A DNA stretch of 64,000 bases from Erysipelotrichaceae bacterium (GTDB lineage Bacteria; Bacillota_I; Bacilli_A; Erysipelotrichales; Erysipelotrichaceae), in the NCBI GenBank assembly GCA_015058845.1, contig SVBO01000001.1, positions 67,934-131,933 of the forward strand. The letters run 5' to 3'. The notes beneath the pieces were generated by a model. It was not told the DNA's origin. It did no database searches and was given only the letters and a program-made list of their open reading frames with translations. The translations under genes and the position numbers were made by a program. Positions within the stretch are counted from its first letter, which is position 1; every line of letters starts with the position of its first letter. Shown in pieces: positions 367 to 6,322 of the stretch.

Positions 367-1704
367 CTACTTTCCTAAACAGAAACGTGTGAATAGTTCA
401 TCTAATAGATCCATATTCTTAGCTTCTCCTATGATGTCTTTGATACATTCATACGCTTGTTCGATATCGATCAAGGCTAGATCGATCTCCATGCCTGCTT
501 CTAGTGCTGCTACTGCTGTTTCCATGTGTGTATGGGCTTGGCGTAGTAATGCGATGTGTCTTTCATTAGCGAATGTTGGTTCTCTTAAGGCGATGGTATG
601 TTCCTCATACATCTCTTCGATTCTGTCGATCAGTGGTTCGATGTGTTGATCTTTGGCAGAGATGTATAGCTTGTCACTATCTATATCTTGTGTCAGATCT
701 ACTTTGTTATACACAATTATTCTATTAAGATCTTTACTTGCTTCTAGTAATGCTTCATCTTCTTTAGCTAATTCCTCATGGGCTTCTAGGACAACGATCA
801 CTAGGTCGGCTTCTTCCATGGCCTTGTGACTTCTTTCAATGCCGATCTTTTCTACGATATCTTCTGTGTGATGGATACCTGCTGTATCGATCAAATGTAA
901 TGTGACACTTGGTAAGCGTACATATCCTTCTACTAGGTCACGGGTTGTTCCTGCTACGTCAGATACGATGGCTTTGTCTTCTTCTAGTAGAGCGTTTAGT
1001 AGAGAGGATTTTCCTACGTTTGGCTTTCCTAGGATGACTGTCTTGATCCCTTCACGCATGATCTTTCCACTATGACTCTTACGGATCAATTCTTCTAATT
1101 TTGTTAGCCATTGGTTTGCTTTAGAGAGTAGTTGTGGTGTTTCTACTTGGGCTACGTCATAGTATTCTGGGTAGTCAATGTTTACTTCGATCTGTGCGAT
1201 CATTTGGATCAGGTCTTCTTTTAGAGGATCGATCAGTGTACGAATACCGCCTCTTAGGGTATTCATGGCTAGTCTTGTGGTAGAGGAGTCTTTTCCTTCG
1301 ATCAGATCTTGTACTGCTTCGGCTTGTGTTAAGTCGATGCGGCCATTCAAGAAGGCTCTCTTTGTGAATTCTCCTCGTTCTGCTAGTTCGGCACCATTTT
1401 CTAGTAATAGCGATAAGATCTTCTTTGTGATGTAGATACCACCATGACAGTTGATCTCTACGGTATCTTCTCGTGTGAATGTTTTAGGGGCTCTGAATAC
1501 GCTAACTAACACTTCATCGATGTATTCTTGTGTCTTAGGATCTTTGATGTATCCGTAGACTACTTGATGGGATGGGATGTTAGTTAGGTCTCTGCTGAAT
1601 AGTGTATTAGCGATGGAGATGGCTTCATCTCCGCTGATTCTTATGATAGCGATAGCTCCTTCGCTTAGTGGGGTAGCTATGGCTGCGATTGTTTTCATGA
1701 ACAT
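367..1704 (-). CDS. mnmE: tRNA modification GTPase MnmE (TrmE)
   Basis: MnmE works with MnmG to add carboxymethylaminomethyl groups to the wobble uridine (U34) of certain tRNAs. The N-terminal tetrahydrofolate-binding domain begins KTIAAIATPLSEGA. The GTPase P-loop GKPNVGKSS lies near residue 230, followed by the DTAGI switch region and an NKVD motif. The protein ends in CLGK, the C-terminal cysteine motif of the family. The frame is open to a GTG at 1713, but the AGGAG at 1715-1719 sits about 10 bases before the ATG at 1704; an ATG at 1698 aligns best with homologues. Its partner mnmG is about 10 kb away, not adjacent as in many Firmicutes. Confidence 0.97.
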   Translation of the reverse strand: MFMKTIAAIATPLSEGAIAIIRISGDEAISIANTLFSRDLTNIPSHQVVYGYIKDPKTQEYIDEVLVSVFRAPKTFTREDTVEINCHGGIYITKKILSLLLENGAELAERGEFTKRAFLNGRIDLTQAEAVQDLIEGKDSSTTRLAMNTLRGGIRTLIDPLKEDLIQMIAQIEVNIDYPEYYDVAQVETPQLLSKANQWLTKLEELIRKSHSGKIMREGIKTVILGKPNVGKSSLLNALLEEDKAIVSDVAGTTRDLVEGYVRLPSVTLHLIDTAGIHHTEDIVEKIGIERSHKAMEEADLVIVVLEAHEELAKEDEALLEASKDLNRIIVYNKVDLTQDIDSDKLYISAKDQHIEPLIDRIEEMYEEHTIALREPTFANERHIALLRQAHTHMETAVAALEAGMEIDLALIDIEQAYECIKDIIGEAKNMDLLDELFTRFCLGK

Positions 1705-1726
1705 ATGGATCACTCTCCTGTGTATG

Positions 1727-1756
1727 ATTATAGCATAGTAGTGGGTAGTATTTCAA
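1727..1756 (-). promoter_or_regulatory. Probable sigma-A promoter of mnmE
   Basis: On the minus strand a TTGAAA (-35, 1756-1751) is followed 18 bases later by a perfect TATAAT (-10, 1732-1727). It lies just upstream of the AGGAG and start codon of mnmE. Confidence 0.6.
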
Positions 1757-1821
1757 AGAATGGGATAATTTCTTTGTTTTTTGTGGTACTTTAGTAGTTT
1801 TTAGTTTTTACAAGAAATTAT

Positions 1822-1975
1822 GTTATATATGAATCTTTTTCCAGAATAATTCGTTATATCTGAATAATTGCATTTTCTTCAAAATCTAATACTTTTTACG
1901 CTTTTTGAGGATATTTGCATGGTATTTCTTAAAGGTATATTATGGTAATATATATTAGTTTAAAAGTATACCATG
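1822..1975. promoter_or_regulatory. Repeat-rich intergenic region upstream of the peptide-regulator cassette
   Basis: The gene-free stretch 1757-2081 is very AT-rich. It holds two near-identical 13-base direct repeats, GTTATATATGAAT (1822-1834) and GTTATATCTGAAT (1853-1865), 31 bases apart, about three helical turns. It also holds an inverted repeat CATGGTAT (1918-1925) / ATACCATG (1968-1975). Such arrays are typical of regulator binding sites, but no factor can be named. Their position suggests control of the divergent mnmE and peptide genes. Confidence 0.45.
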
Positions 1976-2081
1976 AAACTGCAGAATACTACAAAAAGTA
2001 TATATTTGTAGAAGATATATGATATTTGCTATATTTTCCTCACAGAAAGGGAACTTAATGAAAGTTCGGGAGGAAAAGATT

Positions 2082-2198
2082 ATGAAGAAATTATTTGTTT
2101 TATTAACTGTGTTTATGCTTTGTTTTGGAGCAGTAAGTGCTCAAAAGATTAATGACGACAAAGAAGATGGGTTCATCGGTTGGACACTTAGACAATAG
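2082..2198 (+). CDS. Small exported peptide, candidate signalling pheromone precursor (38 aa)
   Basis: This short gene encodes 38 residues. A GGGAGG at 2068-2073 lies 8 bases before the ATG. Residues 1-20 (MKKLFVLLTVFMLCFGAVSA) form a textbook Sec signal peptide with two lysines, a hydrophobic core and an AVSA cleavage site. The predicted released part is QKINDDKEDGFIGWTLRQ. The stop lies 21 bases before the start of a TPR-type regulator, and the two genes probably share one transcript. This is the layout of peptide/receptor pairs in the RRNPP group (PlcR-PapR, NprR-NprX, Rgg-SHP, AimR-AimP), where an exported precursor is processed and re-imported to bind the TPR protein. The coding call is strong; the pheromone role is inference from context. 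Confidence 0.75.
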   Translation: MKKLFVLLTVFMLCFGAVSAQKINDDKEDGFIGWTLRQ

Positions 2199-2219
2199 AA
2201 CAGAAAGGTAGGGAGTTTC

Positions 2220-3428
2220 ATGAAGTTTGTAGATTTCGAGTTGACAGAGTATACGAAGGATTATAAGTATTTCGAGGAATACTTAGAGATACGCTACAAA
2301 CAAGATAACGTGAAACGCAGTGTGATCCTAAAGGAAGCAGACATTTATCAGTCTGCTTTTAGTCTTGCTAAGAAAGATGGATTAGGAACACATAAGAAGA
2401 TCGTTCAGAAGTTTGAGAAGTATTATGGATTAGAACCTATTCAACCTCAACCATTACAAGAACTAAATAACCATTTTAATAATTTATTCATCGGAACCTA
2501 TTATACCAATGAAGAATTAGCTTATAATTCTTATCAAGAAATCATGAAATTAAAGAATGAATTTTCTAATACTTATATATCTTTCCTGTTTGATTTTTTT
2601 GAACTGTTCTACATTAGTACCACAGAACAATCTACACATCAAGATAATGAAAAATATATAAATGAAACTTTTATTTCACTGCAAAAGTATAAGTCTATTT
2701 TCCCTCCTAAATTACTTATTCTATTGATTCTGTCTGGTTTTTCAACCGACCATTTGTCAATATCGGACGTTAATCTAGAAATAGCAAAACTCGAAGAATT
2801 ACTAAGCCGTTACCCAAAACTCAAAGGTTACACTTACTTTAAAATAGGATATATATACCATCGTTTAGACCATCAAGAAGCAAGCATTCACTATTTAAAA
2901 GAAAGTCTTACATACCTAGTACAAGACATAAACCTCCAAAGAGCAAAAACAATACAGAGTAACTTATTTGTCGTTTACAATTCAATCGGTATGCTCGCCA
3001 AGGCCAAAGAACAAGGCGAAACTTTCCTCCTATACCTAAACACAGTAGAAGGAGACGAATTCCTGAAATGGTCTATCAACTACAACATGGCCCTCATCTC
3101 CATCCAACTAGAAAACTACAAAGAAGCCCTACACTACATCGAAACAGCCTACCAATACAATAACAACAAAATAGCCATGATCACCCTATACATGCACATA
3201 TGCCACACCCTAAAAGACAACAAGAAAGTAAAAGAACTCTATTTCACTAACCAAGAACTCATCAACAATAACTCTAATCCTATTTATAAATTAGCAATAG
3301 ACCTTATTTACCACAAGACTATCAAGTATAGTAGAGCTCAACGTAACAAAGAATGGAAAGAGTTATGTCTCCTGCTTGACAAGTTCAAAAACTATAATGT
3401 GAAATACTACATCCATAAACTAAAATAG
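2220..3428 (+). CDS. TPR-type (RRNPP/Rgg-like) putative peptide-sensing regulator
   Basis: This 402-residue cytoplasmic protein has no signal peptide. Residues about 25-70 (around KRSVILKEADIYQS and GTHKKIVQKFEKYYG) resemble a degenerate helix-turn-helix. The rest is helical, with TPR-like repeats at roughly 200-340, for example the YFKIGYIYHRLDHQEASIHY and YKEALHYIETAYQYN segments. Small HTH plus TPR array is the architecture of RRNPP quorum-sensing receptors. It follows a 38-residue exported peptide gene by 21 bases. Composition is unusual: 2461-3420 contains only one GATC, while neighbouring genes have one about every 55 bases, which suggests horizontal acquisition. DNA binding and peptide binding are not proven; a non-DNA-binding TPR receptor (Rap-like) is the main alternative. 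Confidence 0.7.
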   Translation: MKFVDFELTEYTKDYKYFEEYLEIRYKQDNVKRSVILKEADIYQSAFSLAKKDGLGTHKKIVQKFEKYYGLEPIQPQPLQELNNHFNNLFIGTYYTNEELAYNSYQEIMKLKNEFSNTYISFLFDFFELFYISTTEQSTHQDNEKYINETFISLQKYKSIFPPKLLILLILSGFSTDHLSISDVNLEIAKLEELLSRYPKLKGYTYFKIGYIYHRLDHQEASIHYLKESLTYLVQDINLQRAKTIQSNLFVVYNSIGMLAKAKEQGETFLLYLNTVEGDEFLKWSINYNMALISIQLENYKEALHYIETAYQYNNNKIAMITLYMHICHTLKDNKKVKELYFTNQELINNNSNPIYKLAIDLIYHKTIKYSRAQRNKEWKELCLLLDKFKNYNVKYYIHKLK

Positions 3429-3457
3429 CTTAGAGATATCTCTAAGCTATTTTTATT
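3422..3457. terminator. Bidirectional stem-loop terminator
   Basis: A perfect 32-base palindrome (3422-3453) has arms AAAATAGCTTAGAGAT and ATCTCTAAGCTATTTT. It overlaps the stop of the TPR regulator and lies just past the end of the convergent arsC/spx-like gene. A-rich and T-rich flanks let it act on both strands. Confidence 0.85.
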
Positions 3458-3462
3458 TCTAC

Positions 3463-3813
3463 CTACTTCAAACCCTCATACACATCACTACGATACCCAA
3501 CGATCACAGTATCCTCACTCACTAACAACGGCCTCTTCACCAACATTCCATCACTAGCCAGTAATACTAACTTCTCCTCATCACTTAAACTATCCATCTT
3601 CTTACTTAACTCTAATTCTCTATACTTGATCCCAGAAGTATTAAAGAACTTACGAAGTGGTAATCCACTCATCGCACACCATTCCTTTAACTCCTCTACC
3701 GTAGGATTCTCCTCCTTGATCTCTCTGACTACAAACGAAACATTCAACTCCTCTAAATGCCTCCTAGCCTTCTGACAAGTACTACACTTCCCATAACAAA
3801 TAAACGTATACAC
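3463..3813 (-). CDS. ArsC/Spx family thioredoxin-fold protein
   Basis: The start YTFICYGKCSTCQKARRHL carries the CxxC redox or binding motif of the arsenate reductase/Spx superfamily. Later motifs are KFFNTSG, a ...VKRPLLV cis-proline segment and VIVGYR, all usual for the YffB/ArsC/MgsR branch. The frame is open upstream to a GTG at 3852, but the strong GGGAGG sits about 7 bases before a GTG at 3813. That start gives 116 residues, the normal family length, and the usual MYTF opening. It follows parB by a few dozen bases and is probably the last gene of the rsmG-noc-soj-parB operon. Whether it reduces arsenate or binds RNA polymerase like Spx cannot be told from sequence. Confidence 0.8.
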   Translation of the reverse strand: MYTFICYGKCSTCQKARRHLEELNVSFVVREIKEENPTVEELKEWCAMSGLPLRKFFNTSGIKYRELELSKKMDSLSDEEKLVLLASDGMLVKRPLLVSEDTVIVGYRSDVYEGLK

Positions 3814-3856
3814 ACACATACCTCCCTTATACAACAAAGCGCCGTTATCCACAGCG

Positions 3857-4735
3857 CTACTCTTCGATCATATGTAAGATCTCTAAAATACGATTCAAAT
3901 CAGAATCATCTTCAAACCTAATAGAAATCTGCTTATTCGCGATCACTACCTTAGTCTGTAACTTATCACTCATCAACTTCACAGGATAACTATAATCAGT
4001 CTCTTCCTTCTTACGAGGCTTAACACTATCCTTATTCAACAACTGTTTCACAAGATTCTCAACAGCACGAACACTCATACCCTCTTGCACAGCCTTCTTC
4101 GCAACACTTAAGATACTCTTCTCATCTAAAGGCAATAAAGCACGCGCATGTCCCATAGACAACTCATTATCCATTACCATCTTCTGCACACTACTAGGTA
4201 ACTTCAACAAACGAAGCATATTCGCAATATGCTCACGACTCTTACCCACACGCTTAGCCAAAGCCTCTTGCGTATACCCAAGCTTAGTGATCATATTCTG
4301 ATACCCAATAGCCTCTTCGATCGCACTCAGATCCTCACGTTGAATATTCTCCAACATAGCGATCTCCATCATTTCCTCATCCGTAAAATCAACAACGATC
4401 GCAGGGATCTCAGAAAGACCCGCTAACTTACTAGCACGCACACGACGCTCACCAGCAATCAGATCATATCCCTTAATAGACTTCTTCACAAGAACAGGCG
4501 TAAACACACCATGCTCCTTAATAGACTCACTTAACTCTCTTAACTTCTCCTCATCAAACACCGTACGAGGTTGATATGGATTAGGACGGATCTCTGATAA
4601 AGCAATAGTCACCTTCTCAGTAGGAACCACATCCGTTTGACCACTTTGGATCTGTTCGATCACATCTGTCACATTATTACCGAAAATAGCCTCTAACCCT
4701 TTTCCCAACGCTCTATTCTTCTTAGCAGACGCCAT
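3857..4735 (-). CDS. parB: Chromosome partitioning protein ParB (Spo0J)
   Basis: ParB is the CTP-dependent DNA clamp that loads at parS sites near the origin and works with Soj/ParA in chromosome segregation. Visible features are the N-terminal RALGKGLEAIFG, the PNPYQPR and GERRVRA boxes of the ParB/Srx nuclease-like fold, ENIQREDLSAIEEA, and the HTH region TQEALAKRVGKSREHIANML. The C-terminal dimer domain is present. The start at 4735 (MASAKKNRALGKG) is about 7 bases from GGAGG; an ATG two codons upstream is too close. Soj lies 12-18 bases upstream. No parS consensus was found in the window. Confidence 0.95.
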   Translation of the reverse strand: MASAKKNRALGKGLEAIFGNNVTDVIEQIQSGQTDVVPTEKVTIALSEIRPNPYQPRTVFDEEKLRELSESIKEHGVFTPVLVKKSIKGYDLIAGERRVRASKLAGLSEIPAIVVDFTDEEMMEIAMLENIQREDLSAIEEAIGYQNMITKLGYTQEALAKRVGKSREHIANMLRLLKLPSSVQKMVMDNELSMGHARALLPLDEKSILSVAKKAVQEGMSVRAVENLVKQLLNKDSVKPRKKEETDYSYPVKLMSDKLQTKVVIANKQISIRFEDDSDLNRILEILHMIEE

Positions 4736-4753
4736 CTCCATTCCTCCTTAACA

Positions 4754-5542
4754 CTACTTCTTTAAAATATCCTTATTATGCTCCATAACTTCCTTAGCAA
4801 GATGAGCATACGCATTCGCACCCTCACATCTCACATCATAATCAAAGATACATTGACCACAACTAGGAGCCTCAGATAACTTAACATTACGTGGAATATA
4901 ACTCTTATACACACGTTCCTTGAAATACTTACGTACCTCTTGCATGACCTCTAAACCAAGCTTAGTACGACCATCAAACATCGTTAATAGAACACCCTCG
5001 ATCTTTAGATCCTTATTGAATAAGTTCTGCACTAATCGAATAGTACTTAATAACTGCGTAACACCCTCTAATGCATAATACTCACATTGTACTGGAATGA
5101 TCACACTATCCGCAGCAGTTAACGCATTCGTATTCAATAATCCAAGAGAAGGAGGACAGTCGATGATAATGAAATCATACGCATCCTTCACAACATCTAA
5201 CTTCTTCTTAAGAAGTTGTTCCTTACCTACCTTATAGTTATTCATCTCAAGATCTGCTCCCGCTAAATTGATCGTAGTAGGTAATAGATCTAAAGTAGCT
5301 TGTGCTAATGGCACTTGGATCACAGCTTCTTGTACTGTTGTATCAGATAATAATACCTCATACACAGTCTCTTCAAATTCCATGGTATTAGCCCCAATTC
5401 CTTGAGTAGTATTGCCTTGTGGATCTAGGTCTACAAGTAATACCTTATTTCCTAAATATGTAAGACCAGCAGCTAGATTGATACTTGTAGTAGTCTTACC
5501 AACTCCGCCTTTTTGATTTGAAACCGCAATAATCTTTCCCAT
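4754..5542 (-). CDS. soj: ParA family ATPase Soj
   Basis: Soj is the Walker-type ATPase partner of ParB. It acts in segregation and, in Bacillus, also modulates DnaA. The deviant Walker A KGGVGKTTT is near residue 11, the Walker B FIIIDCPPSLG near 125, and the sequence is full length at 262 residues. AAGGAG lies 8 bases before the ATG. It sits between noc and parB in one operon. Confidence 0.96.
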   Translation of the reverse strand: MGKIIAVSNQKGGVGKTTTSINLAAGLTYLGNKVLLVDLDPQGNTTQGIGANTMEFEETVYEVLLSDTTVQEAVIQVPLAQATLDLLPTTINLAGADLEMNNYKVGKEQLLKKKLDVVKDAYDFIIIDCPPSLGLLNTNALTAADSVIIPVQCEYYALEGVTQLLSTIRLVQNLFNKDLKIEGVLLTMFDGRTKLGLEVMQEVRKYFKERVYKSYIPRNVKLSEAPSCGQCIFDYDVRCEGANAYAHLAKEVMEHNKDILKK

Positions 5543-5554
5543 AACTTACACTCC

Positions 5555-6322
5555 TTACTGTTTCGGAATCCTAACCACCATCATAACAGCATCCCCATCA
5601 TCACGCGTCTCTACAGTTGCCTTGATGCCACCATCATTGATCATCTTAACAGCCTGCTCGATCGTATTCATAGCGATCTTTGTATGTTTAGTAATTCCAT
5701 GTAGACTACTTTTCTTCTTAGCCTCTTTTGGTTCTTTCAACTGTTGAATATATTCCTCAGTCTTCTTAACGTTATATCCTTTATTAATAATAGTCTTATA
5801 TACATTTCTTTGTTGTTCCTTCTCAACACTTAGTAAAGCACGTCCATGTCTTTCGGTAATAACACCACTGCTTACTGCTTGTTGGATCTCTTCTGGAAGA
5901 TTCAATAAGCGGATCTTATTCGCTACACTTGCTTGACTCTTACCGATCTTCTTAGCCACTTCTTCTTGTGTCATAGAAGAATTACGCATTAGGTTCACAT
6001 ACGCCTTAGCCTCTTCAATAGCACTTAGATCTTGTCTTTGAATATTCTCGATCAATGCTAGTTCTGCCGATTGTAAGTCACTTGTTTCCATAAGGATACA
6101 AGGTACTTCATCCATACCATTTAAACGACATGCACGTAGTCTTCTCTCTCCTGCAATGATCTCATAATGATCCCCCATATGACGTACTACGATAGGTTGT
6201 AGTAAGCCATTATACTTAATTGACAATGCTAGATCTGCTAACGCCTCATCATCGAAATATAAACGTGGTTGATTCTTATTCGTAACGATCAGATCTGCAT
6301 CGATCCATTTAACCTCTTTCAT
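5555..6322 (-). CDS. noc: Nucleoid occlusion protein Noc (ParB-like)
   Basis: This is a second ParB-family DNA clamp of 255 residues, with NQPR, GERRLRACRLNG and ENIQRQDLSAIEEAKAY boxes plus the HTH segment TQEEVAKKIGKSQASVANKI. Its place between rsmG and soj is that of noc in Bacillus, where the protein binds NBS sites and keeps the division ring off the nucleoid. It is clearly distinct from the parB product two genes downstream. GGAGG lies about 8 bases before the ATG. No Noc binding site consensus was seen in this window. Confidence 0.88.
   Translation of the reverse strand: MKEVKWIDADLIVTNKNQPRLYFDDEALADLALSIKYNGLLQPIVVRHMGDHYEIIAGERRLRACRLNGMDEVPCILMETSDLQSAELALIENIQRQDLSAIEEAKAYVNLMRNSSMTQEEVAKKIGKSQASVANKIRLLNLPEEIQQAVSSGVITERHGRALLSVEKEQQRNVYKTIINKGYNVKKTEEYIQQLKEPKEAKKKSSLHGITKHTKIAMNTIEQAVKMINDGGIKATVETRDDGDAVMMVVRIPKQ

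Follow-up and report, generated by a model that had tools for sequence, protein, structure and literature searches.

A divergent NprR-like regulator and an exported micro-peptide as a probable RRNPP-type signalling pair in an Erysipelotrichaceae bacterium

The closest described counterpart of the locus reported here is NprR-NprX of the Bacillus cereus group, in which a receptor of ~420 aa, of the HTH plus nine-TPR class, is paired with an adjacent gene for a Sec-exported precursor; nprX lies 3' of nprR, and NprR has a second, phosphatase-type function. PlcR-PapR and Rgg-SHP follow the same superfamily logic, with a small peptide gene adjoining an HTH-TPR regulator (papR sits downstream of plcR), and most described RRNPP pheromones are not rich in cysteine. 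The Rap-Phr pairs of Bacillus and phages share the TPR receptor fold and a short exported precursor gene beside the receptor. Rap proteins lack an HTH and act on response regulators through a three-helix bundle, and a strictly conserved Asn of RNPP receptors (Asn227 of RapF, in a TPR A-helix) holds the peptide backbone (PMC3601957). RRNPP propeptide genes lie immediately upstream or downstream of the receptor gene (PMC9765709), and SHPs are exported by PptAB rather than Sec (PMC10075063).

The window, by which we mean the whole stretch of 64,000 nucleotides that was analysed, corresponds to positions 67934-131933 of contig C6 (189 kb) in a draft genome of 1.75 Mb, and contains a two-gene cassette whose features are collected in Table 1. 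The ribosome site of the first gene lies eight bases 5' of its ATG, and an in-frame ATG at 2058 would give a 46-aa alternative form of the peptide; the second gene begins 21 bp past the peptide stop, with a GGGAG of its own at 2211-2215. The putative promoter went unlisted in a consensus promoter scan, which returned no standout match before the peptide gene, and its -35 element is weak (3/6). Two operator candidates were rejected, namely the palindrome GAACTTAATGAAAGTTC (2051-2067), which, one mismatch allowed, occurs in the genome no more often than its control and whose two other exact genome copies sit inside ORFs, and CTACAAA-N9-TTTGTAG (1989-2011), which is no larger than chance would produce in AT-rich DNA.

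Table 1. Coordinates of the cassette features within the window
Feature	Position	Strand	Details
Putative promoter	2006..2035	+	TTGTAG (2006-2011), 18 bp spacer, extended -10 TGCTATATT, hexamer TATATT 2030-2035; read by eye
Shine-Dalgarno site of peptide gene	2068..2073	+	GGGAGG; picked as GGAGG by scan
Exported micro-peptide, 38 aa, putative propheromone	2082..2198	+	ORF, leader hydropathy, K-K start, signal-peptidase-like site
HTH + TPR regulator, RRNPP/NprR-like putative pheromone receptor, 402 aa	2220..3428	+	Pfam, hhalign, AF2, Foldseek
Divergent HTH coding region	2271..2426	+	Residues 18-69; aligned with relatives' HTH_3, modelled at pLDDT about 80-90
Asn289 codon	3084..3086	+	Invariant in a nine-sequence alignment; aligned with the Asn of NprR SNMGSIY
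Intrinsic terminator closing the cassette	3422..3453	+	14-bp stem, U-rich tail

The cassette is self-contained between housekeeping genes, with no transporter or immunity gene inside it, and its neighbours are those given in the first-pass annotation: mnmE on one side and a Spx/ArsC-type gene followed by parB on the other. In relatives, the spx-parB and mnmE neighbourhoods carry unrelated cargo and no equivalent gene at the site, and the spx-parB neighbourhood is absent from the relatives' loci examined. Beyond the Spx/ArsC-type gene, two ParB-like proteins (parB and a noc-like gene, 42% identical) flank soj near rsmG (window 3857-6322). The first-pass annotation had also called the cassette compositionally foreign, which proved to be weak evidence that adds nothing: GC is 0.33 in the cassette and 0.37 in the window, and it falls below the flanks in 86% of 70 related regulators as well (mean 4.3 points lower), so that low GC, being typical of these regulators, is no sign of recent import. 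As a separate observation, GC3 skew flips across the cassette (window 367-4741), from -0.46 in mnmE to +0.80 in parB, both on the minus strand, and inside the regulator gene it passes from +0.07 to -0.64 between the halves (2.7 sd from the contig mean), possibly marking a rearrangement junction or domain mosaicism.

The peptide consists of a leader, MKKLFVLLTVFMLCFGAVSA, followed by the predicted mature part QKINDDKEDGFIGWTLRQ (codons 2142-2195), which contains no Cys. The leader, predicted like all leaders in this study by a hydropathy rule and not by SignalP, has a hydropathy of 3.0 over 10 residues, a K-K start and a V-S-A/Q signal-peptidase-like site. We defined exported micro-ORFs by an ATG, a Shine-Dalgarno site, a charged then strongly hydrophobic leader, a length of 22-80 aa and absence of overlap, and only two ORFs of contig C6 fit this definition, the window peptide and a two-TM 66-aa protein, giving a background rate of ~1 per 95 kb. 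The exported 38-residue peptide with a strong ribosome site, as first described, is thus borne out by the ORF, the GGGAGG and the Sec-type leader, export being judged by the hydropathy rule; the proposal that GFIGWTLRQ is the active pheromone is a guess.

The 402-aa regulator is an orphan when searched by itself. Its sequence alone matches no RRNPP chain, and in Pfam it matches no HTH model and falls just short of TPR_2 (E 4.4e-6, 26.8 bits against a cut-off of 27). Single-sequence searches of GTDB contigs, viral contigs, plasmids, phages and 273 family genomes returned no true relative: one match (G012) was a membrane TPR protein aligned over the TPR stretch only, matches to the N-terminus were RimO-like and other housekeeping proteins, and all of these were rejected. 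The 38-mer, searched against 268 family genomes, likewise has no homologue beyond its leader, its weak matches being mostly leaders of longer proteins. Two of its matches (E 0.009 and 0.044) are 66-aa exported ORFs from another genus, with a stop codon directly next to the start of the gene for a 409-aa HTH_3 plus TPR protein. This protein retrieved relatives in 17 genomes, and an alignment of these relatives together with the window protein (A1) gave matches in 135 of the 268 genomes and 45 of 60 genera; many of these matches span the whole length, and others cover the HTH only or are partial. The way into the regulator set was the peptide match, so the choice of its founders was not blind to the peptide.

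Set against a family profile built without it, the window regulator matched with an hhalign probability of 96.2% (E 2.4e-9, residues 38-311), in a collinear alignment spanning HTH, linker and TPRs, while being only 11-18% identical to members of the set. HTH_3 was found in 15 of 18 aligned members and the window residues align with it, though without a Pfam HTH match of their own. AlphaFold without an alignment gave a model too poor to use (pLDDT 47); with the relatives as alignment, AF2 gave pLDDT 83.1 (pTM 0.77), and in this model the HTH takes up residues 18-69 as four helices (18-29, 33-39, 44-53 and 59-69), after which comes a TPR superhelix. The window protein forms the longest branch (2.8) of a 78-regulator tree, its placement there being unsure. 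Judged by the profile alignment and the model, the window regulator is a member of a family-wide set of putative receptors. The first-pass description of a 402-residue HTH-like plus TPR protein 21 bases after the peptide is confirmed for the ORF and the TPRs, and its HTH becomes apparent only with the family alignment and in the model.

The family profile, again without the window protein, matched NprR at E 1.3e-14 over nearly its whole solved length, and Rap3T, RapJ, Rap105 and RapF at E 1e-12 to 1e-7; designed TPR proteins outscored NprR, but only over generic repeats. A Foldseek search with the window model ranked NprR first and RappLS20 next, with phage Raps and RapI within the top 50 (RapI TM 0.59/0.65). 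LGN was also among the fold matches, and the TPR similarity is partly generic. Asn289 does not vary in alignment A4 and stands opposite the Asn of NprR SNMGSIY. It is a candidate for the residue that holds the peptide backbone in RNPP receptors, a match that is compatible rather than decisive, as this position belongs to the generic TPR consensus too. Neither a PlcR nor an Rgg model was among the Pfam or NCBIfam matches listed for the window protein or its relatives, and both proteins were absent from the listed sequence and fold matches. The receptor structure prediction proposed in the first-pass annotation yields a TPR superhelix with NprR and Rap proteins as best PDB matches, and of its comparison with PlcR-PapR and Rgg-SHP the RRNPP likeness stands while the particular models do not, the nearest solved relatives being NprR and Rap.

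Several differences separate the locus from these systems. Identity to NprR in the fold alignment is 12-15%, the window HTH is very divergent, and the window propeptide gene precedes the receptor gene; unlike Rap, the window protein aligns with HTH regulators. Together with the linkage described next, the profile and fold comparisons support a divergent RRNPP-type pair of putative pheromone and receptor, closer to NprR than to PlcR or Rgg.

The pairing itself recurs. We applied the fixed micro-ORF criteria to 75 non-identical regulators, accepting ORFs upstream or divergent within 400 bp, and found an exported micro-ORF beside 38 of them, compared with 2 of 401 control genes (p about 1e-32, the counts not being phylogenetically independent), both of these two control genes adjoining the two-TM 66-aa ORF of contig C6. 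As a second control, 2 of 127 other genes in the regulator loci had a micro-ORF (p 9e-18). In 20 of the 38 cases the micro-ORF lies on the same strand at most 60 bp upstream, and in most upstream cases the spacing is -16 to 17 bp, most ending within 20 bp of the regulator. The search for homologous pairs in related genomes, suggested in the first-pass annotation, thus recovered at least one pair in 18 of 19 genera, the window's genus being represented twice: at L204, in another genome of this genus (G001, a MAG of Erysipelotrichales bacterium isolate RGIG6468 from sheep rectum), a 47-aa exported ORF ends 2 bp before the regulator.

Bernard et al. 2023 (PMC10075063) recognise RRNPP pairs by five criteria, namely propeptide size, Sec export, receptor size, TPRs and adjacency. 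The window propeptide has 38 aa (46 aa from the upstream ATG; range 10-100 aa) and a Sec-type leader by the hydropathy rule (KK, hydrophobic core, V-S-A/Q), the receptor has 402 aa (range 250-500 aa) with a TPR_2 match just below cut-off and a modelled TPR superhelix, and the two genes are direct neighbours, 21 bp apart on the same strand. Homology to experimentally known RRNPP receptors comes through the family profile and the fold matches. Given a receptor group homologous to NprR and Rap, the inclusion of the window protein in it and the strong micro-ORF linkage, the original RRNPP-like reading holds, and we put the probability that the two genes of the cassette form a peptide signalling unit of RRNPP type at roughly 0.77, on sequence and modelling grounds.

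In such a unit, the 38-aa precursor would be exported via Sec and cut near residue 20, and a short C-terminal piece within QKINDDKEDGFIGWTLRQ would build up outside the cell. The genome carries three SBP_bac_5 (OppA-type) loci and six oligo_HPY (OppD/F) matches, two on each of the same three contigs, and so re-import of the peptide by Opp is possible. Once inside, the peptide may bind near Asn289, on the concave side of the TPR superhelix, and change the action of the HTH on DNA, probably including the cassette's own promoter.

A different role for the peptide has to be weighed against this one, in which it is itself the effector, a micro-protein that is bacteriocin-like or acts on surfaces, and the HTH-TPR protein serves as its dedicated transcriptional regulator without binding it. 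Such a role would suit the composition of many related peptides, 28 of 39 of which have at least two Cys beyond residue 20 (a few of the 39 look doubtful, e.g. those at L148, L150 and L205), and it would suit the L135 cluster, where an ABC transporter and other exported ORFs lie adjacent. It fits the window poorly: the mature part of the peptide is free of Cys, the cassette has neither transporter nor immunity gene, and the receptor family is homologous to the peptide-binding receptors NprR and Rap. We consider an effector unlikely here.

Adjacency is not obligatory in the set: no exported micro-ORF could be detected beside roughly half of the related regulators. Allowing weaker leaders and other start codons added none, and so the unpartnered half is not an artefact of these thresholds; one peptide (L143) was missed solely for its AAGG ribosome site. 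Regular absence of an adjacent peptide had been named at the outset as grounds against the pair, and the outcome is divided, with about half lacking one yet nearly all genera retaining at least one pair. The same absence could indicate that the regulator is RRNPP-like with its cognate peptide encoded elsewhere, the micro-ORF being a leader that is translated to control regulator expression through translational coupling, an arrangement that the short spacing here and in most upstream cases would suit. A coupling leader needs neither an export leader nor a variable tail, however, and the ORFs consistently have both. Moreover, the peptide gene is divergent in 16 cases, which rules coupling out there, and dN/dS in the related peptide pairs compared is about 0.06-0.3, which marks them as translated and held by purifying selection on their protein sequence; these values are from related pairs, no close homologue of the window peptide being known. 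We regard coupling as quite improbable. That the 38-codon ORF arose by chance beside a stand-alone HTH-TPR regulator is highly unlikely, for although the 38-mer has no homologue beyond its leader, such ORFs are rare on the contig and enriched ~100-fold at the relatives' flanks.

Returning to the signalling pair, several of the related peptides deserve mention in their own right. The L241 and L243 peptides have nearly identical pro-regions and differ almost wholly in their last ~15 residues, a single example of what would be expected if the tail were the signal, like signal-specificity switching. A Cys/His pattern unusual for RRNPP propeptides, CTHxHxxxCG...NCTHxC with a variable tail behind it, is common to seven peptides (L223, L225-L227, L230, L242 and L244). 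Divergently encoded peptides of 33-36 aa from one genus (L152, L207, L208, L209 and L231), most ending in YG(F/L)x(V/A/I)(F/Y)G(P/E)N, are candidates for a clean pheromone series. Finally, at L135:1578-7000 (G197) the 66-aa peptide/409-aa regulator pair has as neighbours an ABC transporter (from 5606 on), a secreted ORF of 121 aa (5174-5539) and ORFs resembling lipoproteins, which may form a target cluster.

Our text searches of the literature found no RRNPP paper naming Erysipelotrichi, supplementary tables lying outside the searched text and possibly holding an earlier listing, and the main text of the RRNPP surveys consulted (including PMC10075063 and PMC9765709) does not mention Erysipelotrichales. 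What is new is an RRNPP subfamily in Erysipelotrichales and not the mechanism itself, and the window pair is apparently one of a family-wide, uncatalogued set. Where plain homology fails, a signal-sequence match such as that of the 38-mer can open a receptor family. The chances are about even that Erysipelotrichales gut bacteria hold RRNPP-type systems in a large, uncatalogued radiation, frequently with several in one genome and with propeptides combining a conserved, frequently Cys-rich pro-region and a fast-changing C-terminal tail; their pheromones might then be processed or folded unlike known signals, and the window pair would represent a Cys-free, highly diverged branch. The family profile and the table of receptors and peptides provide testable peptide sequences for density-dependent signalling in a bacterial family of the mammalian gut.
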